A stretch of 64,000 nucleotides of DNA, taken from contig NZ_JADNRL010000019.1 of assembly GCF_015595025.1 (NCBI RefSeq), positions 803,521-867,520 of the forward strand. The letters run 5' to 3'. Below, piece after piece: positions 8,003 through 40,794 of this stretch. The notes beneath the pieces were generated by a model, which did not search any database, was not told where the DNA came from, and worked only from the letters and a program-made list of their open reading frames with translations. The DNA is from Halomonas sp. KAO. GTDB lineage: Bacteria; Pseudomonadota; Gammaproteobacteria; Pseudomonadales; Halomonadaceae. The translations under genes were made by a program, and so were the position numbers. Every line of letters begins with the position of its first letter. The stretch's first letter is position 1.

Positions 8003-8851
8003 ATGCTCTCCTATCAGCACGCCTATCATGCCGGCAACTTCGCCGACGTTCATAAACACTTGACCCTGTACGGGGTCATCGATCATTTATTACGTAAAGA
8101 ATCACCTGTTACGTTTATTGATACTCACGCCGGCCGAGGCCTCTATCCCCTGGCCGCGGAGGAGACGGCTCGGCTGCATGAGTACCATCAGGGGGTTCTG
8201 CCGCTATGGGAGTCCCGTGAGTCGCTTTCGACGGATGGGCTTCTGCATGACTGGCTGGTGGCACTGGCCGAGGTACAGTCGGATCCGTCACGGTTGAGCC
8301 ATTACCCAGGGTCGCCCTGGTGGATGAGCCAGCGCCGGCGCTCCCAGGATCGTCAGCTGCTCTTCGAGCTGCATCCCGGGGAGCATGATCACCTGGCGGA
8401 CCAGGTGCTGGGGGGCGCCGTTCGCACGATCCACGGCGATGGCTTGAAGGGGCTCGTGGAGCGCTTGCCGGTGAAGACGCCGCGTCTCTGTGTGCTGATC
8501 GACCCCAGTTACGAGCGCAAGCAGGAGTATGTCGAGGTGGCCGATACGCTGTCGACGACCCTGCACAAGGCGCGTCATGCCGTGGTGCTGGTGTGGTACC
8601 CGCTGCTGCCGGCGGGGCGCCACCATGAGCTGCTCGAGGCGGTGAAGGCGCATGGCCTGCGCAAGGTATGGCGCAGCGAGTTCCTGCAGCATGCCCCCAG
8701 GGAGGGCGAGCGCGGCATGTATGGCAGCGGCATGCTGGTGATCAATCCGCCCTGGGGGCTCGATAAGCGCCTGGCCGGGGCCATGGCGCGGGTGGCACCG
8801 CTGCTGTCGCGAGAGGCCCGCTACCAGGCCGACTGGTGGGTGGGCGAGTAG
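8003..8851 (+). CDS. rlmJ: 23S rRNA (adenine2030-N6)-methyltransferase RlmJ
   Basis: The 282-residue protein methylates N6 of A2030 in 23S rRNA with SAM. It begins with the highly conserved LSYQHAYHAGNFADVHKH. The SAM-binding FIDTHAGRGLY follows, and the amino-methyltransferase motif IV appears as LIDPSYE, where E. coli RlmJ has DPPYE. Length fits the family. It is preceded by the OmpA-like gene's terminator, so it is probably a single-gene unit. It converges on the Fe-ADH gene with only 20 bases between stops and no clear hairpin there. Confidence 0.93.
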   Translation: MLSYQHAYHAGNFADVHKHLTLYGVIDHLLRKESPVTFIDTHAGRGLYPLAAEETARLHEYHQGVLPLWESRESLSTDGLLHDWLVALAEVQSDPSRLSHYPGSPWWMSQRRRSQDRQLLFELHPGEHDHLADQVLGGAVRTIHGDGLKGLVERLPVKTPRLCVLIDPSYERKQEYVEVADTLSTTLHKARHAVVLVWYPLLPAGRHHELLEAVKAHGLRKVWRSEFLQHAPREGERGMYGSGMLVINPPWGLDKRLAGAMARVAPLLSREARYQADWWVGE

Positions 8852-8871: not shown

Positions 8872-10017
8872 TTACAGGCAGCGCCTGAACAGTGCCTCGA
8901 GATTGTCCTGGGTCAGCACGATGGGGTTACCTCCGCAGCTGGGGTCCTGAAGGGCCATGCGGGTCAGCTCGTCGATGCGATCCTCGGTCACTCCTATCTC
9001 GGAGAGGGTACGGGGAATGCCCAGCCGGTCGTTGAGCGTCTGTACAAAGGTGCGGAAGCCATCGAAACCGCCTTCGATGCCCAGGTAGGCAGCGGCCATG
9101 TCGAAGCGCTCGCGGATCGCCTCGGCGTTGAGATCGAGTACCGCCGGCATGCAGATGGCATTGGTGGTGCCATGGTGGCTATTGAACAGCGCCCCGATGG
9201 GATGACTCATCGCATGGATGGCCCCCAGGCCTTTCTGAAAGGCGGTGGAGCCCATCATCGCCGCGCTCATCATCTGGCCGCGGGCCTCGATGTCGCCGCC
9301 ATCGGCATAGGCGCGCGGCAGATACTCCTTGACCAGACGCATGCCCTCGAGGGCGATGCCCTGGCTCATGGGGTGATAGTGGGGGCTGGAGAATGCCTCG
9401 ACGCAGTGTGCAAAGGCATCCAGGCCGGTACCGGCTGTGATCGGCTTCGGCATGCCGACGGTGAGCTCGGGGTCGCAGATCACCACCGAGGGCAGCACCC
9501 TGGGATGGAAGATGATCTTCTTCTCGTGAGTTAGGGAGTTGGTGATCACGCTGGCCCGCCCTACCTCCGAGCCGGTTCCGGCGGTGGTAGGCACCGCGAC
9601 GATGGGGGCGATCGCCTCGGCGTCGGCACGGGTCCACCAGTCATCGATATCCTCGAAGTCCCACACCGGGCGCGTCTGGCCGGCCATGAAGGCTACCATC
9701 TTGCCCAGGTCGAGCCCGGACCCCCCTCCAAAGGCAATGACACCGTCATGGTTGCCGTCCCGGTACGCCTCCACTCCGGCCGCCAGGTTGGTGTCATTGG
9801 GATTGGGGTCGACTTCGGCGAACAGCGCGCGTCCGAGGCCGGCCGCCTCGAGGATATCCAGCGTGGCTTGAGTGATGGGCAGGGTGGCCAGCCCCCTGTC
9901 GGTTACCAACAGGGGGCGGCGGATGCCGGCCTGGGCACAGGCCTCGGGTAGTTCGCCAATCCGCCCTGCGCCGAAGCGGATGGCGGTGGGGTAGGACCAG
10001 TTTCCCGTCAGCGTCAT
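8872..10017 (-). CDS. Iron-containing alcohol dehydrogenase
   Basis: This 381-residue group III alcohol dehydrogenase is the last gene of the minus-strand operon. GGGSGLDLGK is the NAD(P)-binding loop and VPTTAGTGSEV the family signature. Metal ligands can be placed in GLDAFAHCVEAF (Asp and His) and in GAIHAMSHPIGALFNSHHG (two His). These enzymes oxidise primary alcohols or reduce aldehydes with a divalent iron centre. Together with the adjacent ALDH and GS-like ligase it could oxidise the hydroxyl of a gamma-glutamylated amino alcohol. That role is an inference from context; the family assignment is firm. Confidence 0.92.
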   Translation of the reverse strand: MTLTGNWSYPTAIRFGAGRIGELPEACAQAGIRRPLLVTDRGLATLPITQATLDILEAAGLGRALFAEVDPNPNDTNLAAGVEAYRDGNHDGVIAFGGGSGLDLGKMVAFMAGQTRPVWDFEDIDDWWTRADAEAIAPIVAVPTTAGTGSEVGRASVITNSLTHEKKIIFHPRVLPSVVICDPELTVGMPKPITAGTGLDAFAHCVEAFSSPHYHPMSQGIALEGMRLVKEYLPRAYADGGDIEARGQMMSAAMMGSTAFQKGLGAIHAMSHPIGALFNSHHGTTNAICMPAVLDLNAEAIRERFDMAAAYLGIEGGFDGFRTFVQTLNDRLGIPRTLSEIGVTEDRIDELTRMALQDPSCGGNPIVLTQDNLEALFRRCL

Positions 10018-10081
10018 GTTGTTACCTTCCTCGGATAGTAAGCGTTGCCCCGTTCGGGGCGTGTTCGATGCCTGGTATCGG

Positions 10082-11464
10082 TTAGCCCGATGGCGCCTGG
10101 AGGTAGTAGGACTTGGGGCGGGTCAGGTTGTGGTAGCCGATGACCGAGAGTGAGCCGCCGCGGCCGGTATCCTTGCAGCCGGTCCAGCACAGCGCAGGGT
10201 CGAGGTAGTCGGCGCGGTTCATGAACACGGTGCCGGTCTGGAGCTGGTCGCCGATATGCCGGGCACGTGCGGCGTCGGTGGTCCATAGGCTCGCGGTCAG
10301 CCCGAAGGGGCTGTCATTCATCAGACGAATCGCCTCGGCATCATCGGCGACGGGCATGATGCCCACCACCGGACCGAAGCTCTCGTCGCGCATCACCCGC
10401 ATGTCGTGGGTTACGTCGGTCAGGATCTGCGGCGTGAGGTAGGCACCGCCGTCGTCCTGGGGTTTTGTGGCGATATGCGCCGTGGCGCCGGCAGCGACCG
10501 CCTCATCGATCTGGGCACGTACCTCGGCGGCGAAGCGCACATGGGCCATGGGTCCGATATCGGTGGTCTCTTCCAGCGGGTTGCCCAGCCGGTAGCCCTC
10601 GACGAGTGCCACGGCTTTCTCGACAAAGGCGTCGAAGAGGCTTTCGTGCACGTAGATGCGCTCGATGCCGCAGCAGCACTGGCCGGAGTTGAACATCGCG
10701 GCGTCGATCAGGGTGGCGACGGCGGCGTCGAGGTCGGCGTCCTCCATCACATAGCCCGGGTCCTTGCCCCCCAGCTCCAGGGCCATGCCGGTAAAGGTGC
10801 CTGCCGCCGCTTGCTCCAGGGTGCGGCCGGCGTTCACCGAGCCGGTAAAGTTGATGAAATCGAAGCTCCCCTCGGCGATCAGCGTCGAAGTGGTGGCGTG
10901 ATCGAGGAAGACGTTCTGGAACACCGCCTCGGGCACCCCTGCTGCGTGGAACGCCTGAGCCATGCGCTCACCCACCAGCAGGGTCTGGGTGGCGTGCTTG
11001 AGGAGCACGCTGTTGCCGGCGATCAGTGCCGGGGCGACGCTGTTGATGGCGGTCATGTAGGGGTAGTTCCAGGGCGCGACCACCAGCACCACGCCGTGAG
11101 GGACACGCTTGATATAGCGCTTGAGGCCGGGGTCGTCGCCGACCCTGATATCGGCCAGCGCCTCCTGGGCGATGGAAGCCATGTGTCGGCCGCGCTCCTC
11201 GAAGCCGCCGAACTCGCCCCCGTAGCGCACCGGCCGCCCCATCATCCGGGCCAGCTCGGGAACGATAACGTCGTTCATCTCACCCACCGCGGTGATGCCA
11301 CCCAGGACGCGGTCGATACGCTCCTGCAGCGGACGTGCCGCCCACTCGAGCTGGGCCTGACGCGCCTGTCGTGCCGCCTGTCGGGCGGCGTCGGGTGACA
11401 GCGTCAGGCGTTCGGCATAGACCGTGCCGTCGATTGGTGAGATGCATTGCAGTGTCTGGCCCAT
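10082..11464 (-). CDS. NAD(P)-dependent aldehyde dehydrogenase family protein
   Basis: The 460-residue sequence has the full ALDH fold. The nucleotide-binding VLVVAPWNYPYMTAINSVAPAL lies around residues 105-126. The general-base glutamate is in ALELGGKDPGYVMEDAD, and the catalytic cysteine is in FNSGQCCCGIERIYV. A triple cysteine at the active site is unusual but still offers the needed thiol. It lies 64 bases upstream of the Fe-ADH gene and 42 bases downstream of the GS-like gene. An ADH-ALDH pair suggests two-step oxidation of an alcohol to an acid. Substrate unknown. Confidence 0.92.
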   Translation of the reverse strand: MGQTLQCISPIDGTVYAERLTLSPDAARQAARQARQAQLEWAARPLQERIDRVLGGITAVGEMNDVIVPELARMMGRPVRYGGEFGGFEERGRHMASIAQEALADIRVGDDPGLKRYIKRVPHGVVLVVAPWNYPYMTAINSVAPALIAGNSVLLKHATQTLLVGERMAQAFHAAGVPEAVFQNVFLDHATTSTLIAEGSFDFINFTGSVNAGRTLEQAAAGTFTGMALELGGKDPGYVMEDADLDAAVATLIDAAMFNSGQCCCGIERIYVHESLFDAFVEKAVALVEGYRLGNPLEETTDIGPMAHVRFAAEVRAQIDEAVAAGATAHIATKPQDDGGAYLTPQILTDVTHDMRVMRDESFGPVVGIMPVADDAEAIRLMNDSPFGLTASLWTTDAARARHIGDQLQTGTVFMNRADYLDPALCWTGCKDTGRGGSLSVIGYHNLTRPKSYYLQAPSG

Positions 11465-11506
11465 TATCCTCTCCGATAGGCTGAAATCGTTGTAGCAGTG
11501 ACTCTC

Positions 11507-12877
11507 TCAGGCACGCTCGAAGCCGCGTGCCACCTCGAACTGGGTCACCACCTGGTCGAACGCTTCCAGCTCGACCTCGGCGGCGCGCACGTAGTGATCG
11601 ACCACATCGTCGCCCAATGACTCGCGCAGCATCGTGGAGCCTGCGAGAGCATCCCTGGCATCGCGCAGATTCTGCGGAATCAAGCCACTGTCGCCGCTGT
11701 AGGTGTCGCCCTTGGCCGGCGGCGATAGCGCCAGCTCCTCGGTGATCCCGCGAATGCCGGCGGCCAGCTGGGCCGCCATGGCCAGGTAGGGGTTCAGGTC
11801 GGAGCCGCCGATGCGGTTTTCCACCCGTACCGCCTCGGTACCCGCTGCACAGAGGCGGAAGCCGGCGGTGCGGTTATCCACCGACCACACCGTGCGCGTC
11901 GGGGCGAAGGAGCCCTTCTGGAAACGCTTGTAGCTGTTGACGTAGGGCGCCAGGAAGTAGGTGGTATCGGTGGCGTAGTGCAGCAGTCCGGCCAGGTAGT
12001 GCTTCATCAGTGGCGACATGCCCAGGTCGTCATCCTCATCGAAGAAGGCGGACGATCCATCTCGAAACAATGACTGATGAATATGGCTGGAGCTGCCCGA
12101 ATGAGCGTGGTGCCACTTGGGCAGAAAGGTCACCGCGCGACCCTGCTGCCAGGCGATCTCCTTGATCGCGTGCTTGGCGATGGTGTGATAGTCGGCGGTA
12201 TCGAGCGCCGGTGCGTAGCGAATATTGAGCTCTTCCTGACCCCTGCCGGCTTCCCCCTTGGTCCCCTCGATGGGTATCCCGGCGGCGTGGAGATGATTGC
12301 GCACCGGACGCATCACATGCTCCTCCTTGCTGGTCTGGAAGATATGGTAGTCCTCGTTGTAGCCACTGATCGGCTGCAGGTCGCGGAAGTCCCCCCGGCG
12401 GATCTCATCGAAGCTCTTCTCGAACAGGAAGAATTCCAGCTCGGTGGCCATCATCGCGCTCAGTCCCAGATCACTCAGACGTGCCAGCTGGCGCTTCAGC
12501 ATCGCTCGGGGTGAATGGGGCACGGGCTCGTGGGTGTGGTGATCCAGCACGTCACACAGCACCAGCACCGTGCCCTCGAGCCAGGGCAGGGGGCGTAGCG
12601 TGGTCAGATCGGGGCGCATGATGTAGTCGCCGTACCCGGCCTGCCAGGAGGTGCTGGCATAGCCATCCGGGGTCTCCATCTCCAGATCGGTGGCCAGCAG
12701 ATAGTTGCAGCAGTGAGTCTCCCGCCAGCCTCCGTCGATGAAGTGGTGCGCATGCAGCCGCTTGCCCATCAGGCGGCCCTGCATATCGACGAAACACGCC
12801 AGCACCGTGTCCACCTCACCGTTTTTGACCCGATCCGCTAGGTCTTCCAGGGCATCCAGCGTCACTGCACTGTTCAT
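11507..12877 (-). CDS. Glutamine synthetase-like gamma-glutamyl ligase
   Basis: This 456-residue protein belongs to the glutamine synthetase superfamily, the group that includes PuuA, IpuC and GlnA-like enzymes joining glutamate to amines. Catalytic-domain motifs are ATELEFFLF (metal glutamate), KGEAGRGQEELNIRYAP, HAHSGSSSHIHQSLF (ATP and metal) and NRTAGFRLCAAGTEAVRVENR (arginines contacting glutamate and phosphate). I see no adenylylation-site tyrosine loop typical of GlnA. The start at 12877 is preferred because AGGAG lies eight bases before it; the ATG at 12883 would be only two bases from that site. ALDH, ADH and an FGase-like amidohydrolase in the same operon point to amine or amino-alcohol catabolism rather than nitrogen assimilation. 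Confidence 0.85.
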   Translation of the reverse strand: MNSAVTLDALEDLADRVKNGEVDTVLACFVDMQGRLMGKRLHAHHFIDGGWRETHCCNYLLATDLEMETPDGYASTSWQAGYGDYIMRPDLTTLRPLPWLEGTVLVLCDVLDHHTHEPVPHSPRAMLKRQLARLSDLGLSAMMATELEFFLFEKSFDEIRRGDFRDLQPISGYNEDYHIFQTSKEEHVMRPVRNHLHAAGIPIEGTKGEAGRGQEELNIRYAPALDTADYHTIAKHAIKEIAWQQGRAVTFLPKWHHAHSGSSSHIHQSLFRDGSSAFFDEDDDLGMSPLMKHYLAGLLHYATDTTYFLAPYVNSYKRFQKGSFAPTRTVWSVDNRTAGFRLCAAGTEAVRVENRIGGSDLNPYLAMAAQLAAGIRGITEELALSPPAKGDTYSGDSGLIPQNLRDARDALAGSTMLRESLGDDVVDHYVRAAEVELEAFDQVVTQFEVARGFERA

Positions 12878-12905
12878 TTCCATGGCTCCTTATGGGGTCG
12901 CCGTG

Positions 12906-12958
12906 CCGCGTCCCGACGGTGTCGGGGCGCGGTGGGCTTTGAGCCCGGCGTAGCCGGG
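12906..12958 (-). other. Two tandem stem-loops between the TRAP binding-protein gene and the GS-like gene
   Basis: Hairpin one is CCGCG-T-CCCGAC / GTCGGG-G-CGCGG (12906-12932, loop GGT). Hairpin two is CCCGGC / GCCGGG (12944-12958... arms ending at 12958, loop GTA). Neither has a T-run on the minus strand. They lie just downstream of the dctP-type gene, where such loops often protect the abundant binding-protein message. Function is inferred. Confidence 0.45.
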
Positions 12959-12969
12959 GGTGTGATAGC

Positions 12970-14022
12970 TCAGGCGTCGGTGTAGCGGTAGGGACGGCCG
13001 GCCTTGCGCATGTCGGCGTTGTACTGCTTGAAGATCTCGACCACCTTGGCCTTGGTCTCCGACTGGGCGGCGATTTCGTCCCAGAACTCCTGGGCGGCAT
13101 TCTCCACCTGATCCCACTCGGCATCGGGGATGGAGGTGAGTTCGAGCTTGTCGCCATGCACCCGCAGCCTGGCCTCACCGCCCCAGTACCAGTGCTGGCG
13201 ATAATAGTGAGACTGCTCGCAGCACACCTCGAACAGCAGCCGAAGATCCTCGGGCAGCGCATTCCAGCGCTCCATATTGACGAAGAAGTGGCCAATCCAG
13301 GCCCCCGAGATGTTGTTGGTCAGGAAGTAGTTGGTGACATCGGCCCAGCCCACCGTGTAGTCCTCGGTGATACCGGACCAGGCGATACCGTCCAGCTCGC
13401 CGGTCTGCACGGCCACCTCGATGTCCTCCCAGGGGAGCGTCACCGGTACCACACCGAACTGTGACAGGAAGCGCCCGGCGGTGGGGAAGGTGAAGATACG
13501 CTTGCCCTCGAGATCCTTGAGGCTGCGAATCGGCTCCTTGGTGACGAAATGGCAGGGGTCCCAGGCGCCGGCGCTGACGTGCTTGACGCCGACCTTGGCG
13601 TACTCCTCCTCCCAGATCTCCTTGAGTCCGTACTGGTTGAACAGCACCGGGACATCCAGGCTATAGCGCGACCCGAAGGGGAAGTAGCCGCCGAACACGG
13701 TCACCTCCGTGGGTGAGGCCATGGAGTCGTCGTCAGACTGCACCGCGTCGATGGTGCCGCGCTGCAGGGCACGGAACAGCTCGCCGGTAGGCACCAGCTG
13801 ATCGGCGTAGAACAGCTCGATCTGCATGCGGTCTCCGGCGATGCGGTTGAACAGGTCGATGGCCGGCTTGGCGACGTGCTCGGCCAGTGCGGCGCCGGCG
13901 TAGGTCTGCATGCGCCACTTGATGGTGGGCTCGTCCTGGGACTGCGCCATGACGCGGCTGGCCAGCGGTGCCATGGCGGCTCCGGCGGCGGCGGTGATCA
14001 GAAACTTGCGTCTTGTTGTCAT
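12970..14022 (-). CDS. TRAP transporter substrate-binding protein (DctP family, Tat-exported)
   Basis: The 350-residue periplasmic protein starts with MTTRRKFLITAAAGAAMAPL. This is a twin-arginine signal (RRKFL) followed by a hydrophobic stretch, with a likely cleavage after VMAQ near residue 27. The mature part has DctP features: the LVPTGELFRALQRGTIDAV hinge, the FPTAGRFLSQFGVVPVTLP segment with the arginine that usually contacts a carboxylate, and GELDGIAWSGITEDY, which recalls TakP-type proteins. It feeds the DctQ/DctM permease encoded upstream. The ligand is not deducible, but a carboxylate-bearing compound is the usual TRAP substrate. A good CAGGAGAG site precedes the start. Separation from dctM by 141 bases suggests its own translation control. 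Confidence 0.92.
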   Translation of the reverse strand: MTTRRKFLITAAAGAAMAPLASRVMAQSQDEPTIKWRMQTYAGAALAEHVAKPAIDLFNRIAGDRMQIELFYADQLVPTGELFRALQRGTIDAVQSDDDSMASPTEVTVFGGYFPFGSRYSLDVPVLFNQYGLKEIWEEEYAKVGVKHVSAGAWDPCHFVTKEPIRSLKDLEGKRIFTFPTAGRFLSQFGVVPVTLPWEDIEVAVQTGELDGIAWSGITEDYTVGWADVTNYFLTNNISGAWIGHFFVNMERWNALPEDLRLLFEVCCEQSHYYRQHWYWGGEARLRVHGDKLELTSIPDAEWDQVENAAQEFWDEIAAQSETKAKVVEIFKQYNADMRKAGRPYRYTDA

Positions 14023-14163
14023 TGTGTCGCTCTCCTGCTATTTCATAACACTGTTGATAACGCTCGTCTTTTCCTGGTTTTACGCTCTTGGCGCTCCTCC
14101 CTGAGAGCCCCTTTCATGGCGATGAGACCCGAAGCCAACGCCAAGTCGATGTCATTGATATGT

Positions 14164-15486
14164 CTAGTGGCCATAGACATAGCCGGGCAGCCACAGGGCG
14201 ATCTGTGGGAACAGCATCACCAGGCTCAGGGCCACGGTCATCACGAACACGAAGGGGATGATCGAACGATAGATGTCGCGCAGGCCGATCTCGGGAGGGG
14301 CCATGGCGCGCATCAGGAACAGGTTGTAGCCGAATGGCGGGGTCATGTAGGCGATCTGGGTGGTGATGGTGTAGAGCACGCCGTACCAGATCAGATCGAA
14401 GCCCAGCGCATCGACCAGCGGCACATAAAGCGGCGCCACGATCACCAGCATGGCGGTGTCGTCGAGGAAGGTTCCCATCACGATGAAGCTGAGCTGCATC
14501 AGGATCAGGATCAGCCATGGCGATAGTCCCAGCTTCTCCGTGAACAGGCTCTCGATCGCCTTGACCGCACCCAGCCCATCGAAGATGGCGCCGAAGGCCA
14601 GGGCGGCGAGGATGATCCACATGAACATGCAGGAGATCGCCAGGGTCTGGCGCACCGATACCTCGAATACCCGGCGCGTCATGCGTCCCTTGAGGATGGC
14701 CGCCAGCAGGGCCGCCGTGGCCCCCACCGCCGAGCTTTCGACCAGCGAGGTCCAGCCCTTGACGAAGGGCACCATCATCACCGCGAAGATCACCAGCGGC
14801 AGCACGCCCGCGCGCAGCAGGCGCAGCTTTTCCGCCATGGGCACATCGCGCTCCTCGGCGGGCAGCACCGGTCCCAGCTCGGGCTGCAGGCGACAGCGAA
14901 AGTAGATGTAGAGGATAAACAGCGTCGCCATCATCAGCCCCGGCAGCACCCCGGCCAGCCATAGCTGGCCCACCGGCTGACGGGCGATCATGGCGTAGAG
15001 CACCAGCACCACGGAGGGTGGCACGAGAATCCCCAGGCTCGAGCCTGCCTGTATGACCCCGGTGACCATGATCTTGTCGTAGCCACGTCGCAGCAGTTCG
15101 GGCAGGGCGATGGTGGCGCCAATGGCCATGCCCGCCACCGAAAGCCCGTTCATGGCCGAGATCAGCACCATCAGGCCGATGGTCCCGATGGCCAGGCCTC
15201 CCCTTACCGGGCCCATCCAGACATGAAACATCCGATACAGATCGTCGGCGATGCGGCTTTCCGACAGCACATAGCCCATGAAGACGAACATCGGCAGGGT
15301 CAGTAGCGGGTACCACTTCATCAGCTTCATGGCCGAGGAGAAGGGAATATCCACCCCTCCCGTGCCCCAGAGGAGCACGCCGGCCAGGGCGCCGACGAAG
15401 CCGATGGCGCCGAATACCCGCTGTCCGGTCATCAGCATCAGCATCATCGAGCTGAACATGACGATGGCGATCATCTCGTACGACAT
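14164..15486 (-). CDS. TRAP transporter large permease subunit (DctM family)
   Basis: The 440-residue integral membrane protein has about twelve or more hydrophobic helices and DctM signatures such as ISAMNGLSVAGMAIGATIALPEL and PPFGYNLFLMRAMAPPEI. It is the Na+-coupled transport subunit of the TRAP system. The start is the ATG whose A overlaps the dctQ stop (TGATG); a much longer upstream extension in the same frame is a shadow of dctQ. Coupled translation with dctQ is likely. Confidence 0.93.
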   Translation of the reverse strand: MSYEMIAIVMFSSMMLMLMTGQRVFGAIGFVGALAGVLLWGTGGVDIPFSSAMKLMKWYPLLTLPMFVFMGYVLSESRIADDLYRMFHVWMGPVRGGLAIGTIGLMVLISAMNGLSVAGMAIGATIALPELLRRGYDKIMVTGVIQAGSSLGILVPPSVVLVLYAMIARQPVGQLWLAGVLPGLMMATLFILYIYFRCRLQPELGPVLPAEERDVPMAEKLRLLRAGVLPLVIFAVMMVPFVKGWTSLVESSAVGATAALLAAILKGRMTRRVFEVSVRQTLAISCMFMWIILAALAFGAIFDGLGAVKAIESLFTEKLGLSPWLILILMQLSFIVMGTFLDDTAMLVIVAPLYVPLVDALGFDLIWYGVLYTITTQIAYMTPPFGYNLFLMRAMAPPEIGLRDIYRSIIPFVFVMTVALSLVMLFPQIALWLPGYVYGH

Positions 15487-16082
15487 CAGATGTCCACTCC
15501 GCGAAGCCGGCCGATATCCCGGAAAAATTCGGCAAGGGATTGAAGAATCATCAGAAAAATCCCGATGCACAGCAGGGTCTTGATCGGCCAGAGCCACGGC
15601 CGCCAGGCGGTGGGGCTGCGCTCCAGGAAGCCGATCATCTCCCCCGCTGCCGAGGAGCCCTGGGTCAGGAAGGTCCATCCCAGGTTGAACAGGAAGGCGA
15701 AGGGTTCGCTGCCGAAGTAACCCAGCGAGTAGGCGGTCGATACCAGTCCGCCATACAGCAGCACCCCCAGATAGAAGAGCAGAAAGCACACCGTGAAGGC
15801 ATCGACCCAGGCCTTGGTCTTCAGGCTCCAGTCGCCGTAGAACAGATCCATGCGAACGTTCGAACCCAGCTGGATCGAGTAGGGGCCACCCAGCACGAAG
15901 TAGGCCACCATGACGAACTGGGCGGTCTCGAGCGTCCACATCGAGGGAGTCAGGAACACCTTGGAGGTCGACGACCACAGCAGCACGCCGATCAGCACGA
16001 AGATCAGGTACATGGCGGCCCGTCCGATGACGCGGTTGAGAGCGTCGATGGCACGGATATAGCCACGGATCAGGCTAGGCAT
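15486..16082 (-). CDS. TRAP transporter small permease subunit (DctQ family)
   Basis: The 198-residue protein has four main hydrophobic segments. The DctQ region includes VLLWSSTSKVFL, an LGSNVRMDLFYGD motif typical of the family (normally written G..HV..D.....), and a long hydrophobic C-terminal half. It assembles with DctM in the inner membrane. Its start region overlaps the end of the amidohydrolase gene by 8 bases and its stop overlaps dctM by one base, so the first three genes form a tightly coupled block. Confidence 0.9.
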   Translation of the reverse strand: MPSLIRGYIRAIDALNRVIGRAAMYLIFVLIGVLLWSSTSKVFLTPSMWTLETAQFVMVAYFVLGGPYSIQLGSNVRMDLFYGDWSLKTKAWVDAFTVCFLLFYLGVLLYGGLVSTAYSLGYFGSEPFAFLFNLGWTFLTQGSSAAGEMIGFLERSPTAWRPWLWPIKTLLCIGIFLMILQSLAEFFRDIGRLRGVDI

Positions 16083-16881
16083 GGGGGGATCCTTTCGGGC
16101 CGGGGCGGATCAACCCCAGTGCCACCAGAGCCGGTTCGAGCAGTTGCAGCAGCTCGTCGGCCAGGGTGTGGATGGCCTCGGGGGTGGCCAGCAGGTCGTT
16201 GCGGATCTCGAGCATCACGTTGGGCAGCCCATGGCCGATGCCATGCAACTTCAGCGAGTGGGTCACGCCGTCTTCGGGCCCGTAGGGCGCGTTGCGCTCT
16301 ACCTTGCGGTGCGCCAGACGTGGTGCCTGGACCAGCATGGCATCGGCCAGGCGGCTGTCGGCGTCGTGGAGCACACCGATCTCCACCGCCCTTCGTCGGC
16401 CGTGGTAGTCGGGGGTGAAGCTGTGCACGGTGACCAGCGCGGTGGGATGGTGTTGCTCGGTGCGAGACTCGATGACCCGGGTCACGCTGGCGCAGAAGGG
16501 AAGGTAGACGGACTCGATACGGGCTTGGCGCTGGGCAGGTGTCAGCCGACGATTGCCCGGGACCTCGATGATCTCGGAGCGCTCGGGCATGGCGCTGGCC
16601 GCCTCGGGCGGGCGATTGCAGTCATACACCAGTCGCGACACACGGCTGGCCACCAGGGGCGCATCCAGCGCCTGTGAGAGCCGCAGGGCCAGCTCGCGGG
16701 CTCCTGGGTCCCAGGCCGCATGGCTGTAGCGGTGACGGGGGGCGAGACCCAGTTCGTGATAGGGCGTGGGGATATGATGCGATGCGTGTTCGCACAATAA
16801 TATCACCGGCCCCATGCCGGCAGGGTTGTGCAGCTCTACGCTCGGGGATGTCACTGTTGTTGACGTTGTTGTTGTTGACAT
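16075..16881 (-). CDS. N-formylglutamate amidohydrolase family protein
   Basis: This 268-residue protein of the FGase family is the first gene of the minus-strand operon. Seen motifs are ILLCEHASHHIPTPY near the N-terminus (metal-binding EH), HAAWDPGARELAL, SRLVYDCNRPP (arginine and aspartate signature) and VTVHSFTPDYHGRRR. The classical member (HutG) deformylates N-formyl-glutamate in histidine degradation, but no other hut genes are here. Beside a GS-like ligase it may instead hydrolyse a gamma-glutamyl amide; this is an inference. The N-terminus is threonine-rich because of a short run of ACA/ACG codons. A GAGGAAG site precedes the ATG. Confidence 0.82.
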   Translation of the reverse strand: MSTTTTSTTVTSPSVELHNPAGMGPVILLCEHASHHIPTPYHELGLAPRHRYSHAAWDPGARELALRLSQALDAPLVASRVSRLVYDCNRPPEAASAMPERSEIIEVPGNRRLTPAQRQARIESVYLPFCASVTRVIESRTEQHHPTALVTVHSFTPDYHGRRRAVEIGVLHDADSRLADAMLVQAPRLAHRKVERNAPYGPEDGVTHSLKLHGIGHGLPNVMLEIRNDLLATPEAIHTLADELLQLLEPALVALGLIRPGPKGSPHA

Positions 16882-16906
16882 CGTGCTTCCTCCACGGTCT
16901 TGTAAA

Positions 16907-16936
16907 GATATAGACGGGAGTTGATCAGCATGTCAA
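16907..16936 (-). promoter_or_regulatory. Candidate sigma-70 promoter of the TRAP/GS/ADH operon
   Basis: On the minus strand a perfect -35 TTGACA (16931-16936) is separated by 18 bases from TATATC (16907-16912). The inferred start site lies about 20 bases upstream of the amidohydrolase ATG. It sits in the 110-bp divergent gap shared with the rpiR-type gene, so the RpiR protein could act here. No clear operator palindrome was identified. Confidence 0.6.
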
Positions 16937-16991
16937 GATTTCTTCAGAAGCGCCGTTCACACCGCCATGGCGTGCCACAGACAGGTGATGC

Positions 16992-17858
16992 TTGACGACC
17001 CTCAAGGCTACCGTGCGTGAGCTTATCCGCCAGCACTACTCGGTACTGACCCAGTCCGAGCGCAAGCTGGCCAATACCCTGCTGGAGAACTACCCGGCGG
17101 CGGGGCTCGCCTCGATTACCAGCGTCGCCGGCAACGCAGGGGTCTCCTCGCCGACCGTGGCGCGAATGGTCAAGAAGCTTGGTTTCAAGGGCTATCCTCA
17201 GTTTCATCAGGCGCTGCTCGAGGAGCTGGAGGCCCGCGGGGTGGGCCCGACCCAGCGGCGCAACAGCTGGCTCACCGAGGCGCCCGAGACGCACCTGTTG
17301 AACCGCTTCACCCATGCGGTTCGCCATAACCTTGAGCAGACCTTCGCCCAGATAGAGCTGGAGCAGTTCGATCGGGCGGTTCACCGAATGGCCGATGCCG
17401 AGCATCAGCTCTATATCGTCGGTGGACGCATCACTCATGCCCTGGCCGACTACGCCTTCACCCATCTGCAGGCGGTTCGCCCTCGAGTCACTCATCTGAG
17501 CGACTCCTCGGGTACCTGGCCCCATTACGTGCTCGACATGCAGCCCGGGGATACCCTGCTGATCTTCGATATCCGCCGTTACGAGACCAACCTGCTGCGC
17601 CTGGCCGAGCTGGTCGGCCAGCGTGGCGTGGCCATCGTGCTGTGTACCGACCAGTGGGGATCACCGATCTCGAGTGTGGCCGATGTGACCTTCAACTGCT
17701 GGGTGGAGATTCCTTCCGGGTGGGACTCCAGCGTCTCCACCCTGCTGCTGCTCGAGGCGATGATCGCCGCGGTCCAGGAGCAGCGATGGCCGGAGGTCCG
17801 TGATCGCTACGAGCGACTGGACGAGCTGTTCGACAAGACGCACTTCTTTCGCAAGTGA
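16992..17858 (+). CDS. RpiR/MurR-family transcriptional regulator
   Basis: The 288-residue protein has an N-terminal RpiR helix-turn-helix (residues about 1-80, including ITSVAGNAGVSSPTVARMVKKLGFKGYPQFH). A SIS domain follows from about 120 to 260 (LYIVGGRITHALADYAF, MQPGDTLLIFDIRRYETNLLRLAEL). RpiR regulators usually bind phosphosugars or related metabolites through the SIS domain. The start is a TTG with AGGTGA just upstream; an ATG four bases before it is in another frame that stops quickly. Divergent from the TRAP/GS operon, it is probably the local regulator. Confidence 0.87.
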   Translation: MTTLKATVRELIRQHYSVLTQSERKLANTLLENYPAAGLASITSVAGNAGVSSPTVARMVKKLGFKGYPQFHQALLEELEARGVGPTQRRNSWLTEAPETHLLNRFTHAVRHNLEQTFAQIELEQFDRAVHRMADAEHQLYIVGGRITHALADYAFTHLQAVRPRVTHLSDSSGTWPHYVLDMQPGDTLLIFDIRRYETNLLRLAELVGQRGVAIVLCTDQWGSPISSVADVTFNCWVEIPSGWDSSVSTLLLLEAMIAAVQEQRWPEVRDRYERLDELFDKTHFFRK

Positions 17859-17874: not shown

Positions 17875-17982
17875 CAGAAGCTGCCGAAGATCTCGCATGC
17901 TTATCTACTTGCCGATACAGAAGCCGTCGAAGCTCTCGCATGCTTATCTACTTGCCGATACAGAAGCTACCGAAAATCTCGC
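17875..17982. repeat. 43-bp tandem duplication of the mnmE 3' end
   Basis: Unit one is 17875-17917 and unit two 17918-17960; a partial third copy (17961-about 17982) is the real coding end of mnmE. The units begin CAGAAGC and share the segment TCGCATGCTTATCTACTTG, differing by a few substitutions in the CAGAAGC.. to TCGC part. The mnmE stop codon (17948-17950, minus strand) is inside unit two, and an older copy of the last codons and stop is repeated beyond it. Confidence 0.85.
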
Positions 17983-19315
17983 CGAGCAGATCATCGGCGC
18001 TGAACTCACCGGTGATCTGGCCCAGCGCCTGCTGGGCATCACGCAGGTCCTCGGCGAGCAGCTCGCCGGCGCCGTGGCCGGTGAGCTGGGCTTCTCCGTT
18101 CTCCAGTGCCTCCTCGGCACGGTCCAGGGCATCGAGGTGGCGCCGACGGGCCGAGAAGCGTCCCTCCGCCGTGGCGTTGAAGCCCATCACCTCCTTGAGA
18201 TGCGCCTTCAGGTTATCCACACCCTCCGTGGTCTTCGCCGAGAGCTTCACGATGGGAGTGGGTGTGGACAAGTCGAGCCCCGGGCGCTCTTCGCTGGCGT
18301 CGATCTTGTTGCGTACCAGGGTCAGCCGAGAAGGATCGGGTAGCCGGGCCACGAACTCCGGCCAGATGGCCATCGGGTCGGTAGCGTCGGTGGCCGCGGC
18401 ATCGACCAGCAGCAGCACCCGGTCGGCCTTCTCGATCTCCGCCCAGGCGCGAGCCACACCGATCCGCTCCACGGCGTCCGGCGTGTCGCGCAGGCCGGCG
18501 GTGTCGATCACATGCAGCGGCATGCCGTCGATATGGATATGCTCGCGCAGCACGTCCCGAGTGGTGCCGGCTATATCGGTGACGATGGCCGTCTCCTGCT
18601 CGGTCAGGGCATTGAGCAGGCTCGACTTGCCGGCATTGGGCCGGCCGGCGATCACCACGTTCATGCCCTCACGCATCAGTGCGCCCTGGCCGGCGGCGGC
18701 ACGCACCATGGCCAGCTCCGCCTTTACCTCGGCGAGCATCGCCGCCACCCGGCCGTCACCCAGGAAGTCGATCTCCTCTTCGGGGAAGTCGATGGCCGCC
18801 TCCACATAGATGCGCAGCTCGATCAGACGCTCCACCAGGCCCTCGACACGCCTGGAGAAGTCCCCCTGCAGGGAGCGCAAGGCATTTTCCGCCGCGGCCT
18901 GGGAGCTGGCATCGATCAGGTCGGCGATCGCCTCGGCCTGGGCGAGGTCGAGCTTGTCGTTGAGGAAGGCGCGCTCGGAGAACTCCCCCGGACGGGCGGG
19001 GCGGGCCCCCAGCTCGAGGCAGCGGCCGAGCAGCAGATCCATGATCACCGGACCACCATGCCCCTGCAGCTCGAGGACATCCTCCCCGGTGAAGGAGTGT
19101 GGCCCGGGGAAGAAGAGCGCGATGCCTTCATCGATCACGCCGCCGCCGCCTCGAAAGGGTCCATAGTGCGCGTGACGAGGTGCGGGGGAGTGGCCCACCA
19201 CCGCCTTGGCGATCATTGCACAGAGCGGGCCTGAGACCCGGATGATGCCGACGCCGCCGCGTCCCGGCGGCGTGGCCAGTGCGGCGATGGTGTCCTGGTC
19301 GTGAAGCGGGGCCAT
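17948..19315 (-). CDS. mnmE: tRNA uridine-5-carboxymethylaminomethyl modification GTPase MnmE
   Basis: MnmE works with MnmG to modify U34 of several tRNAs. The 455-residue protein has the N-terminal tetrahydrofolate-binding domain ([21 protein letters not shown]), the embedded G domain with P-loop [14 protein letters not shown] around residue 222, G3 DTAGLRD and G4 NKID. The invariant C-terminal CIGK, whose cysteine is essential, is present. An AGGAG site precedes the ATG. The usual downstream partners mnmG, rsmG, parA and parB are not next to it; an RpiR gene and catabolic operon converge on it instead. The 3' end carries a tandem duplication. Confidence 0.97.
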
Positions 19316-37858: not shown

Positions 37859-38719
37859 ATGTTTTTTAAGAAGGTGCAAAAGAGAAATATTTATAAAATC
37901 GGAGCACTTGTAGAGAGAGAGGTGGCTAAAAAACAGTGCCAGGTTGATGCGAGAAAGCTGAAGAAGCTAACTCAAGAAAAGCGTATTGTAAATGGTGAGA
38001 TAGTTGTAAGCTTGACGACTTACTCAAAAAGAATCCATGACGTGTATTTGGTTCTTGAAACTATTTCTCAGCAAACTGTTTTGCCTAACAGAGTTATTCT
38101 ATGGCTTGCAGAAGATGAATTTGACTTTAATGACTTGCCAATATCAATCACATCAAGGGTGAGTTTTGGACTTGAGGTTAGGTTTTGTTCAGATATTAGA
38201 AGTTACAAGAAGATAATTCCTACGATAGAAAGTTTTCCAAATAGTGTGATTATTACTTTAGACGATGATGTTTTATACCCTAGAGATACTATTGAAATCT
38301 TGTTGAGAAGTCATAAAAAAAATCCAAACGCTATAATAGGAAATAGAGCACATGAGATTACTTATAAGAAAGGTAAAATAAGGCCTTATAGGAAGTGGGC
38401 GAAAGAAACCAATGATAATAATGGTAATATATTTTTAACAGGCAGCGGAGCAATATTATATCCTCCGGGATCCTTGTATAAAGATGTGGCAAAGAAAGAA
38501 ATATTCACTGATATTTGCCCTTATGCAGATGATGTGTGGTTGTTTTTCATGGCAAAATTAAATGGAACTGAGATTATAAATGTACAAGGTAGGGATTTCA
38601 AAGATTTCATCGAAATATCGAATAGCTATGTTGTGGGTTTGAATAAATTAAACGTGGACAGGGGGTATAATGACAAGCAAATAGCTAATGTGATGAGTTT
38701 TTATAATATTGAGTTGTGA
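37859..38719 (+). CDS. Putative glycosyltransferase (low G+C)
   Basis: The 286-residue protein is probably cytosolic and contains GT-A-like features: IVVSLTTYSKRIHDVYLVLETI at about residue 48, TVLPNRVILWLAEDEF, and an acidic metal-binding motif VIITLDDDVLYPRD near residue 140. FLTGSGAILYPP and CPYADDVWLFFMA follow. Similar short proteins occur in capsule and O-antigen loci. Codon use is strongly AT-biased (AAA, ATA, TTT dominate) against a G+C-rich host, a sign of recent transfer. The start has only a weak site (GAGGCC). The next gene begins 11 bases after its stop. Confidence 0.65.
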   Translation: MFFKKVQKRNIYKIGALVEREVAKKQCQVDARKLKKLTQEKRIVNGEIVVSLTTYSKRIHDVYLVLETISQQTVLPNRVILWLAEDEFDFNDLPISITSRVSFGLEVRFCSDIRSYKKIIPTIESFPNSVIITLDDDVLYPRDTIEILLRSHKKNPNAIIGNRAHEITYKKGKIRPYRKWAKETNDNNGNIFLTGSGAILYPPGSLYKDVAKKEIFTDICPYADDVWLFFMAKLNGTEIINVQGRDFKDFIEISNSYVVGLNKLNVDRGYNDKQIANVMSFYNIEL

Positions 38720-38730
38720 TGGAGGCGTAA

Positions 38731-39741
38731 ATGCTGGATAAGTTTATAAAAAGCAATTTTTTCGAAAAAAAGTTTTTCAAAGTTAGAAAAAAGTTAGATT
38801 GGGTAGAGAAGAGATATAGATATTCTCATGGTATCGGTGAAGGGTTTGAAAATGAAGAGCTAAAAGAAAGAGCAAAGATTTCTTTAAAGATTTTAGAAGA
38901 TGCATGCTTAACCTCATATGAGCAAGGCACCGATACTAAAATTATATGGATTTATTGGGATTCAGACTTGGCAAACGCACCTGAAGTGGTTCGGCTCAGC
39001 TATGTTTCTTGGGAAAAGCTAAACCCGGATTATAAGGTGGTATTTTTAAATGATGAGAATATCGAAAATAAGTTAGGGTTTGATTTTAATTCTATATTTC
39101 ATTTATGCAACATAAGGCTAACAAAGGCTAATAAGGCTGATTTGTTGAGAGTCTATTTGCTAACTCAGTTTGGTGGTGTATGGGCAGATGCAACCACCTT
39201 TTGCCTAAAGCCGCTTAGCTCTTGGCTTCCACATATTAAGCACCAAGCTGATTTTTTCATGTTTAGACAAGAAGAGGTAAAGAGTCGCCCCCTTGAAGTT
39301 TGGTTTATTTATGCTAAAAAAGGCTCACCTTTAATTGCTAAAGCATTTGGTCTTTATTTAAGTTATTTGCTGAAGGATAGAGAGTTCGCAATTTACGTTT
39401 CGAATAGTAAGAAAATGATGCGCAAGCTGGGGTATGAAAAGACACATCCTGATAAAATATATGCACAAGGTGTACATAACGCTGAGAAGTATGGTTTTAT
39501 GCCATATTTCACATTGGCCTATTTTTTAAATGAAAGCATGGGTGAATTATTTAATGACTTTGAAGAAAAAATGTTCTTTAATTTGCCAAACAATTTTTGT
39601 AATAACAAAGAGTCTATAGATGTTTTTTTAAATTCGGTTGTTGCAAAGCAGACCTATAAAGGTAGATATCAAGAGGAAAAGGTTTATTTAGAACGTAAAG
39701 CAGTACTGCTGCTTGATATTTTGGGAAATTTTAACATTTAG
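38731..39741 (+). CDS. Capsular polysaccharide-type glycosyltransferase (GT32-like, low G+C)
   Basis: The 336-residue protein has the sugar-transferase DXD signature of the GT32/Caps_synth group: IIWIYWDSDLANAPEVVRLSYVSW near residue 75, then NIRLTKANKADLLRVYLLTQFGGVWADATTF around 130-160, where R, GG.W and D-A-T are hallmarks. It probably adds a hexose to an LPS or capsule chain. It is as AT-rich as the preceding gene and follows a GGAGG site, so the two form a transferred pair. Donor and acceptor are unknown. Confidence 0.75.
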   Translation: MLDKFIKSNFFEKKFFKVRKKLDWVEKRYRYSHGIGEGFENEELKERAKISLKILEDACLTSYEQGTDTKIIWIYWDSDLANAPEVVRLSYVSWEKLNPDYKVVFLNDENIENKLGFDFNSIFHLCNIRLTKANKADLLRVYLLTQFGGVWADATTFCLKPLSSWLPHIKHQADFFMFRQEEVKSRPLEVWFIYAKKGSPLIAKAFGLYLSYLLKDREFAIYVSNSKKMMRKLGYEKTHPDKIYAQGVHNAEKYGFMPYFTLAYFLNESMGELFNDFEEKMFFNLPNNFCNNKESIDVFLNSVVAKQTYKGRYQEEKVYLERKAVLLLDILGNFNI

Positions 39742-39816
39742 ACTAGCCCATGAGTCCTGCATCTAACCTCACTCATCATCATCAGAAAAATATTGTAAAG
39801 TTACCGTGGGTATTTA

Positions 39817-40794
39817 TTAAATATATTGTTGTGTGTGTGCTAAGTAGTGCTCAAAAACCAGCAGTGCGATGAGCCTTTCCCGTTGCGGGTGATAAAAATT
39901 GGTAATGTATTGGTTGGCGTTGTGTATGATGTCTTGGGCTTCTTCGGGATGTGTTAGGTAGTATGCAACTTTTTCGTCCAGGTCGGAAAAATCATCACTG
40001 ACCTCTACATAGTGGTGGCCTGGGGTCAGCGTACCTTCCATGAACCAAGTTTCATAAGCTGGTTGTTTCATAAAGCACAACGAATTCGATGCCATTATCC
40101 ATTTCAGATTTGTGGCAACATCGTTGCCCTCAATACTGAAGATAAACTTGTGCCCAAGCTGTTGTTTGATAGACATGAATGGCTTTCGATATGCGGTCGT
40201 TTCTACCTTGTTGTCGGTAGCACCAACATCGCACTGGGCCATATCGTGGCACTGTGCTAGAAAATTTTGGCGGTGGGGTTGATGTGCTGCTCCCCGCCAC
40301 ACTAGGGTGCTCTTTTTTTTATCATAATCATAAGGATCGTTTACCGTGTAAAAATGTCGAACGCTGTCGAGTTTGAGTAGTACTGAATTGTAGTTTTCCC
40401 CGTTAATTGGCCTGCTCTTGACAAACGTGGGTTCGTTTGGAACGAAAGTCTTGTCGCCAAAACGATAGTGATATGCACTACTTGCTGGGAAGTGCTTAGC
40501 AACTTGGTAAAAGTCGAGATGATATGTGGATTTTTTTGAGTGTATTTTGAAGTCTTGGTTGCTAGTGGCTGCACCAGAAAGCTCTGATAAGGTGTCAAGT
40601 TTGTTGTAATAGGCTACGCGTTTCATGATAAATTCCTGATCGGCTGAAGGCAGGGTGTCAAACTGGGCCATCAGTTTATCGCGCCGACGTCGGAAAAGGC
40701 TTCTCGGAGGTAGGGCACCTAGCAGACCTGAGGCGTAAAACATGAATTTATGCGCACGATAAGCGTTCTTTCCGCCCATGTTGAGTAATTTCAT
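39817..40794 (-). CDS. Glycosyltransferase family 90 (LpsA/CAP10-like)
   Basis: The 325-residue protein shows the CAP10-type core: TLVWRGAAHQPHRQNFLAQC (residues about 165-185) and KFIFSIEGNDVATNLKWIMASNSLCFM (about 230-255). The latter is the conserved nucleotide-sugar segment of GT90 proteins such as the LpsA glycosyltransferases of LPS outer core. A C-terminal YYLTHPEEAQDI..A..Y segment is also typical. It is convergent with the low-G+C pair and lies 17 bases downstream of the next GT4 gene, with which it probably forms a minus-strand unit. G+C is intermediate. Confidence 0.78.
   Translation of the reverse strand: MKLLNMGGKNAYRAHKFMFYASGLLGALPPRSLFRRRRDKLMAQFDTLPSADQEFIMKRVAYYNKLDTLSELSGAATSNQDFKIHSKKSTYHLDFYQVAKHFPASSAYHYRFGDKTFVPNEPTFVKSRPINGENYNSVLLKLDSVRHFYTVNDPYDYDKKKSTLVWRGAAHQPHRQNFLAQCHDMAQCDVGATDNKVETTAYRKPFMSIKQQLGHKFIFSIEGNDVATNLKWIMASNSLCFMKQPAYETWFMEGTLTPGHHYVEVSDDFSDLDEKVAYYLTHPEEAQDIIHNANQYITNFYHPQRERLIALLVFEHYLAHTQQYI

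Follow-up and report, generated by a model that had tools for sequence, protein, structure and literature searches.

The window analysed here, a stretch of 64,000 nucleotides from Halomonas sp. KAO (contig NZ_JADNRL010000019.1, positions 803,521 to 867,520), carries between its positions 8872 and 17858 seven minus-strand genes and a divergent plus-strand RpiR gene, which very probably constitute a halomonad version of the gamma-glutamyl ethanolamine utilisation operon. This operon is already known from published work on ethanolamine use in salt-loving and marine bacteria, and had been reconstructed correctly from the sequence alone. A major bacterial phospholipid has ethanolamine as its head group, and the encoded route would convert this compound to glycine and glutamate without recourse to the Eut pathway's ethanolamine ammonia-lyase. 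In the present analysis, the assignment is supported by the set of genes, their homologies, critical residues and a conserved gene order.

None of the eight reading frames contains an internal stop, and in each gene the main Pfam family scored above its gathering score, confirming the eight genes and coordinates that a sequence-only reading of the same DNA had put forward. From low to high coordinate, they are the following.

8872-10017, minus strand: iron-type alcohol dehydrogenase (Fe-ADH; GETADH), predicted to convert gamma-glutamylethanolamide to the aldehyde; PF00465/PF25137
10082-11464, minus strand: aldehyde dehydrogenase (ALDH; GAADDH), predicted to convert gamma-glutamyl-aminoacetaldehyde to gamma-glutamylglycine; PF00171 (Aldedh), with E230 and C264
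11507-12883, minus strand: glutamine synthetase (GS)-like protein, putative ethanolamine gamma-glutamyl ligase (ETAGA); PF00120 (Gln-synt_C), PDB 5dm3, with Phe326 at the place of the GlnA flap Glu327
12970-14022, minus strand: TRAP solute-binding protein DctP (EtoX), predicted to bind ethanolamine; PF03480, PDB 4uab/4xf5, with Glu220
14164-15486, minus strand: TRAP large permease DctM (EtoW); PF06808
15486-16082, minus strand: TRAP small permease DctQ (EtoV); PF04290
16075-16881, minus strand: formylglutamate amidohydrolase (FGase)-family protein, putative gamma-glutamylglycine amidohydrolase (GGAH); PF05013, PDB 2odf, with H32, H153 and E225
16992-17858, plus strand: divergent RpiR-family regulator, presumed to respond to ethanolamine; PF01418 and PF01380 (HTH_6 and SIS), counterpart MED193_10021 in the operon given by PMC10132767

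In the proposed pathway, DctP would bind ethanolamine and DctQM would import it. The GS-like ligase would then use ATP to join ethanolamine and glutamate into gamma-glutamylethanolamide, the hydroxyl end of which would be oxidised by the Fe-type ADH and subsequently by the ALDH, yielding gamma-glutamylglycine; the FGase-family amidohydrolase would release glycine and glutamate, with the RpiR protein acting as operon regulator. We infer that the proteins of strain KAO act as in relatives, and likewise the order of steps and the RpiR response. The sequence-only reading had already proposed TRAP import, gamma-glutamylation, oxidation by Fe-ADH then ALDH, and deglutamylation by the FGase, and had preferred an amino alcohol over a diamine; both the published pathway and our residue and homology tests are in agreement with this. 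GS-like ligase, Fe-ADH, ALDH and FGase stand in one operon with TRAP genes, in line with the lists given by PMC10132767 and PMC9397018, and RpiR lies at the FGase end, in the same gene order as in the Fig. 5 legend of PMC10132767. The host genome (G000, completeness 100) returned no match to EutB (PF06751), the mark of the Eut pathway.

The substrate can be assigned through DctP. Against the PDB, residues 26-350 of this protein matched 4uab/4xf5 with an E-value of 7.1e-218 (725.9 bits), versus 2.3e-23 for the runner-up, and a hand count on the alignment gave 307 identical residues out of 325. Its residues 176-178, which we take to be the stretch holding the position of the carboxylate-binding Arg (placed from SiaP), read I-F-T, and Arg occurs there in none of 69 aligned loci. 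Residue 220 is Glu, as it is in 69 of the 70 related loci with a DctP match, the remaining one being unaligned there (residue tallies refer to loci with a match: 70 for DctP, 80 for ALDH and 69 for FGase, out of the 89 described below). The protein combines the two marks of the ethanolamine-binding clade, the platform Glu220 and, at its presumed position, the lack of the carboxylate Arg. The corresponding structure 4UAB, at 1.40 A, is Csal_0678 of Chromohalobacter salexigens, in which ethanolamine is held by platform residue Glu220 according to the description in PMC12410723, and a passage in PMC4646407 reports the carboxylate-binding Arg typical of TRAP proteins to be absent from Csal_0678. 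Because DctP is near-identical to Csal_0678 and Glu220 is kept, ethanolamine is supported as the predicted substrate.

The same pathway might instead have a related amino alcohol as its main natural substrate, for example L-alaninol (2-amino-1-propanol), which would end up as gamma-glutamylalanine. The enzymes could accept such chemistry, and the same protein has a second PDB entry, 4xf5, presumably with (S)-2-amino-1-propanol bound. However, 4UAB holds ethanolamine (PMC12410723, as above), and the sections of PMC10132767 on Phaeobacter describe an EtoX that binds ethanolamine and at least five operon products that rise on phosphorylethanolamine, leaving the alaninol alternative improbable.

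The ligase has features of an enzyme for an amine other than ammonium. Its best PDB match, 5dm3 (E 3.3e-256), which we take to be Csal_0679, was followed by 11zs (E 3.9e-158), while other glutamine synthetases reached 3.8e-52 or weaker; the N-terminal GS domain PF03951 scored below its cut-off. Reading the residues from an alignment with Escherichia coli GlnA and PuuA, we found GlnA positions 50, 129, 131, 212, 220, 265, 269, 271 and 273 as well as 321, 339, 344, 357 and 359 to be kept. Flap Glu327, the GlnA residue at the ammonium site, is replaced by Phe326 in the ligase, and by Tyr340 in PuuA, as would be expected of a GS-like enzyme using an amine other than ammonium. With flap Glu327 missing and the NCBIfam cut-off not reached, we rejected ordinary glutamine synthetase as a reading of this protein. 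A Puu-like pathway for a diamine or alkylamine (putrescine, isopropylamine) could draw on the GS-like nature of the ligase and on a weak match to the gamma-glutamylputrescine synthetase model (200.4 bits, cut-off 650), but none of the seven operon genes encodes an amine oxidase or aminotransferase, an alcohol dehydrogenase is present and the DctP is of the ethanolamine-binding type, so that this alternative deserves next to no credence.

As regards the remaining enzymes, the sole PDB match of the FGase was 2odf (E 1.1e-73), which is Atu2144 of Agrobacterium tumefaciens, and all 69 loci in which an FGase could be aligned share its H32, H153 and E225. E230 and C264 of the ALDH are kept in 78 of 80 loci, the remaining two being unaligned there. 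Many PDB family members matched the ALDH and the Fe-ADH, none of them near-identical. In the NCBIfam scan, which left out DctM, no model matched the FGase protein; this is why NCBIfam does not name it HutG, and on the same ground the histidine-pathway HutG reading was rejected.

To gauge conservation, we inspected 89 related loci, composed of nine loci plus the best 80 of 577 relatives (the nine repeat none of the 80). The complete eight-gene set, identically ordered and with RpiR divergent, was present in 60 of them. A second set of 40 loci, drawn from 20 of the 31 phylum-sample genomes with a match and from the top 20 matches not yet retrieved (19 genomes) among the 124 of 295 genomes matched, showed the full order in 26, or in 24 of 38 after removal of two repeats (L188 and L194, which duplicate L076 and L078). 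Loci with the full order include Halomonas faecis, Vreelandella arcis, Chromohalobacter canadensis, Ruegeria, Roseovarius and Leisingera. Loss of the gene order in relatives had been named in the sequence-only reading as what would speak against its proposal; the order is kept in 60/89 and 24/38 loci, and because eight-gene order and orientation recur to this extent, the arrangement is not due to chance. A fortuitous pairing of an ordinary glutamine synthetase with a HutG-like deformylase of the histidine pathway, for which the Pfam names of both families might speak, is thus barely conceivable given a ligase without flap Glu327, an FGase without any NCBIfam match and a gene order kept across Gamma- and Alphaproteobacteria.

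Several observations weigh against the assignment. Among the matches listed, no NCBIfam equivalog reached its cut-off for the ADH, the ALDH or the GS-like protein: the top ADH match was 4-hydroxybutyrate dehydrogenase (357.3 bits vs a cut-off of 500), the top ALDH match scored 312.7 bits vs 521 (within the best 25 of 45) and the best GS match 234.3 bits (cut-off 429.15). In the ligase, Tyr397, the adenylylation site of GlnA, aligns with a tyrosine (Y395), its surroundings differing, and there are further differences from GlnA (S53 corresponds to Ala76, and Y179 lies opposite a gap). Finally, the full set was not found in 29 of the 89 loci, some of which are short contigs and others of which hold different genes; for part of these 29, truncation and not a true difference may be the explanation.

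The distribution of the ligase is uneven. Queried with the window protein, 10 of 97 relatives encoded it at E ≤ 1e-100, eight belonging to the same genus as the window (the host genome being counted in both figures). The ligase of a related cluster, L074, found counterparts in 31 of 299 phylum-sampled genomes at E ≤ 1e-150 (host genome included); within the family to which genome G191 belongs, 124 of 295 genomes had one at E ≤ 1e-195. Because the ligase is patchy in the window's genus and highly similar to alphaproteobacterial copies, the pattern suggests transfer between classes. Among plasmids, 27 records encode the ligase (E ≤ 1e-120), mainly from Alphaproteobacteria in the genera listed. 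Plasmid carriage was considered and rejected: no record had one place covering 80% of the operon DNA, so that a recent transfer is not demonstrated. EutB occurred in 13 and the ligase in 10 of the 97 relatives, with none having both; a mutual exclusion was nevertheless rejected, since zero overlap would arise by chance about once in five (hand hypergeometric estimate) and so proves nothing.

Outside the window, in a few loci and with Pfam run on chosen genes, we encountered clusters that keep the ligase and ADH, mostly the ALDH, and often FGase and RpiR, together with transport genes other than TRAP. In three of them (L171:8833-10425, L173:6390-7889 and L180:7540-9216), a gene of the amino-acid/ethanolamine-permease type replaces TRAP between FGase and ligase, that of L173 scoring 367.3 bits against the ethanolamine permease model, just below the cut-off of 381.75. 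In L060 and L074, ligase-ALDH-ADH clusters have their TRAP genes replaced. Directly upstream of the ligase, L060 (4671-10344) has a solute-binding protein of the 2-aminoethylphosphonate type (phnS2, 504.1 bits, cut-off 392.75) and ABC genes, and L074 (4514-10368), from an Amylibacter metagenome-assembled genome, has a PhnD-type solute-binding protein, ABC genes and a HAD hydrolase. Relatives of the solute-binding protein and permease of L060 are likewise found upstream of the ligase in L178. Two further clusters (L023:3902-12954 and L035:4837-12972) place a Na/Pi-cotransporter-PhoU protein next to FGase and ligase and carry a DeoR-type regulator (in L035 by clustering only), with an inositol-phosphatase-like gene in L023. 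Among the neighbour genes tried with Pfam, no clear ethanolamine importer emerged in L040, L042, L071, L072 and L087, nor in L169, L179, L182, L190 and L198.

We tentatively propose, as a real possibility that we rate somewhat short of probable, that the enzymes of the gamma-glutamyl ethanolamine route are a module which different lineages combine with different importers: TRAP in the window, a permease of the amino-acid or ethanolamine type in other Proteobacteria, and an ABC importer of the 2-aminoethylphosphonate or PhnD type in a few marine clusters. The clusters of this last kind would import phosphoethanolamine (or a phosphonate), cleave it inside the cell and pass the ethanolamine set free into the same pathway. 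Because the alcohol dehydrogenase is kept in the clusters with ABC importers, the ligase there would still act on ethanolamine. No FGase match was found beside the ligase of L060 or L074, which is either a point against entry as phosphoethanolamine or a sign that the FGase lies elsewhere. A literature search for the phrase ‘phosphoethanolamine transporter’ did not find it among the 20 of 31 papers listed; an earlier published description is possible.

Within the window operon, the gap between RpiR and FGase contains conserved blocks, and the gap between DctP and the ligase a predicted RNA structure.

16907-16946, minus strand: predicted promoter/operator, with -35 TTGACA at 16936-16931, an 18-base spacer and -10 TATATC at 16912-16907; alignment of 10 sequences
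16946-16932, minus strand: conserved imperfect dyad TGAAnAAATnTTGAC, which contains the -35; same alignment
12884-12969, minus strand: GC-rich stem-loop in the DctP-ligase gap; RNA fold of -37.6 kcal/mol, z -2.91 vs 200 shuffles

TTGAC, TATATC and their spacing are identical in all ten aligned sequences (the window and nine halomonad loci), with the last A of TTGACA present in eight (G in L015 and L020), and the predicted -10 ends 25 bases upstream of the FGase ATG. The blocks are plausible as a sigma-70 promoter, and the dyad is a candidate RpiR site. A consensus promoter scan returned no promoter, because its rule requires a final T in the -10, and gave three terminator-like sites vs 3.3 expected. 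The stem-loop is a possible mRNA-stability or attenuation element. As to gene starts, TTG is the earliest in-frame start of the RpiR frame, the FGase and DctQ genes share a few bases, as do those of DctQ and DctM, and DctM most likely starts at 15486, the first ATG of its frame, which overlaps the DctQ stop. The operon is flanked by an rlmJ-like gene (8003-8851, plus strand) and an mnmE-like gene (17948-19315, minus strand), both named by eye. Elsewhere in the window, positions 37859-39741 form an AT-rich island (GC content 0.346 across 38001-40000 vs ~0.6-0.7 in most of the window) that holds two open reading frames judged by eye to look like glycosyltransferases, inside an apparent cell-surface gene region; the island was perhaps acquired.

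The evidence that ethanolamine is bound and that protein levels rise on phosphorylethanolamine comes from papers on relatives. For Phaeobacter sp. MED193, PMC10132767 gives in its Fig. 5 legend RpiR, GGAH, EtoV, EtoW, EtoX, ETAGA, GAADDH and GETADH under consecutive locus tags, and its Table 2 shows at least five operon products to be up on phosphorylethanolamine in proteomics; a Kd of ~7.9 uM for ethanolamine is given there for Phaeobacter EtoX. The same paper cites Vetting et al. 2015 (Biochemistry 54:909) as the origin of the pathway and names C. salexigens and A. tumefaciens C58. Table 2 of PMC9397018 gives PF05013, PF00120, PF00171 and PF00465 as the C. salexigens set, and passages in PMC6529630 and PMC9397018 set out the same steps, with gamma-glutamylglycine amidohydrolase as a member of the formylglutamate amidohydrolase family; PMC6529630 terms the C. 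salexigens pathway an in silico prediction. The sequence-only reading had presented an FGase acting as deglutamylase, paired with a TRAP importer and under RpiR control, as not known to be described. This is refuted by PMC10132767 and PMC9397018, the claim failing because the former gives the same eight genes, RpiR and FGase-type GGAH included. A reading from sequence alone thus recovered a published pathway correctly while failing in its claim of novelty. With the present operon, the system gains a halomonad representative whose substrate can be clearly assigned, and the conserved promoter/operator-like block and the clusters with other importers are small additions to a known system.

Among known systems, the Puu pathway of E. 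coli, in which gamma-glutamylation precedes oxidation, shares a GS-like enzyme, PuuA, that lacks the GlnA flap Glu (Tyr340), but differs in its annotated importer PuuP, oxidase PuuB and hydrolase PuuD, in a stretch without an alcohol dehydrogenase. Streptomyces coelicolor has GlnA4, a GS-like gamma-glutamylethanolamide synthetase, and the subsequent steps there are predicted to be carried out by two dehydrogenases and an amidohydrolase of the FGase family, whereas its regulator is EpuRI and no TRAP importer is named in the pertinent sections of PMC6529630, which also mention a test of a putative ethanolamine permease from a different Streptomyces. The eto operon of Phaeobacter MED193 has RpiR, FGase-type GGAH, EtoV/W/X, GS-like, ALDH and ADH genes in the window's order, a likeness drawn from the listed gene order in PMC10132767, although its host is a Roseobacter (Alphaproteobacteria) and not a halomonad. 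The Csal_0678 region of C. salexigens, as far as the cited sources describe it, offers a near-identical DctP and the same four enzyme families as the window, with no difference noted, and Chromohalobacter canadensis (L022) agrees with the window in all eight genes and in their order.

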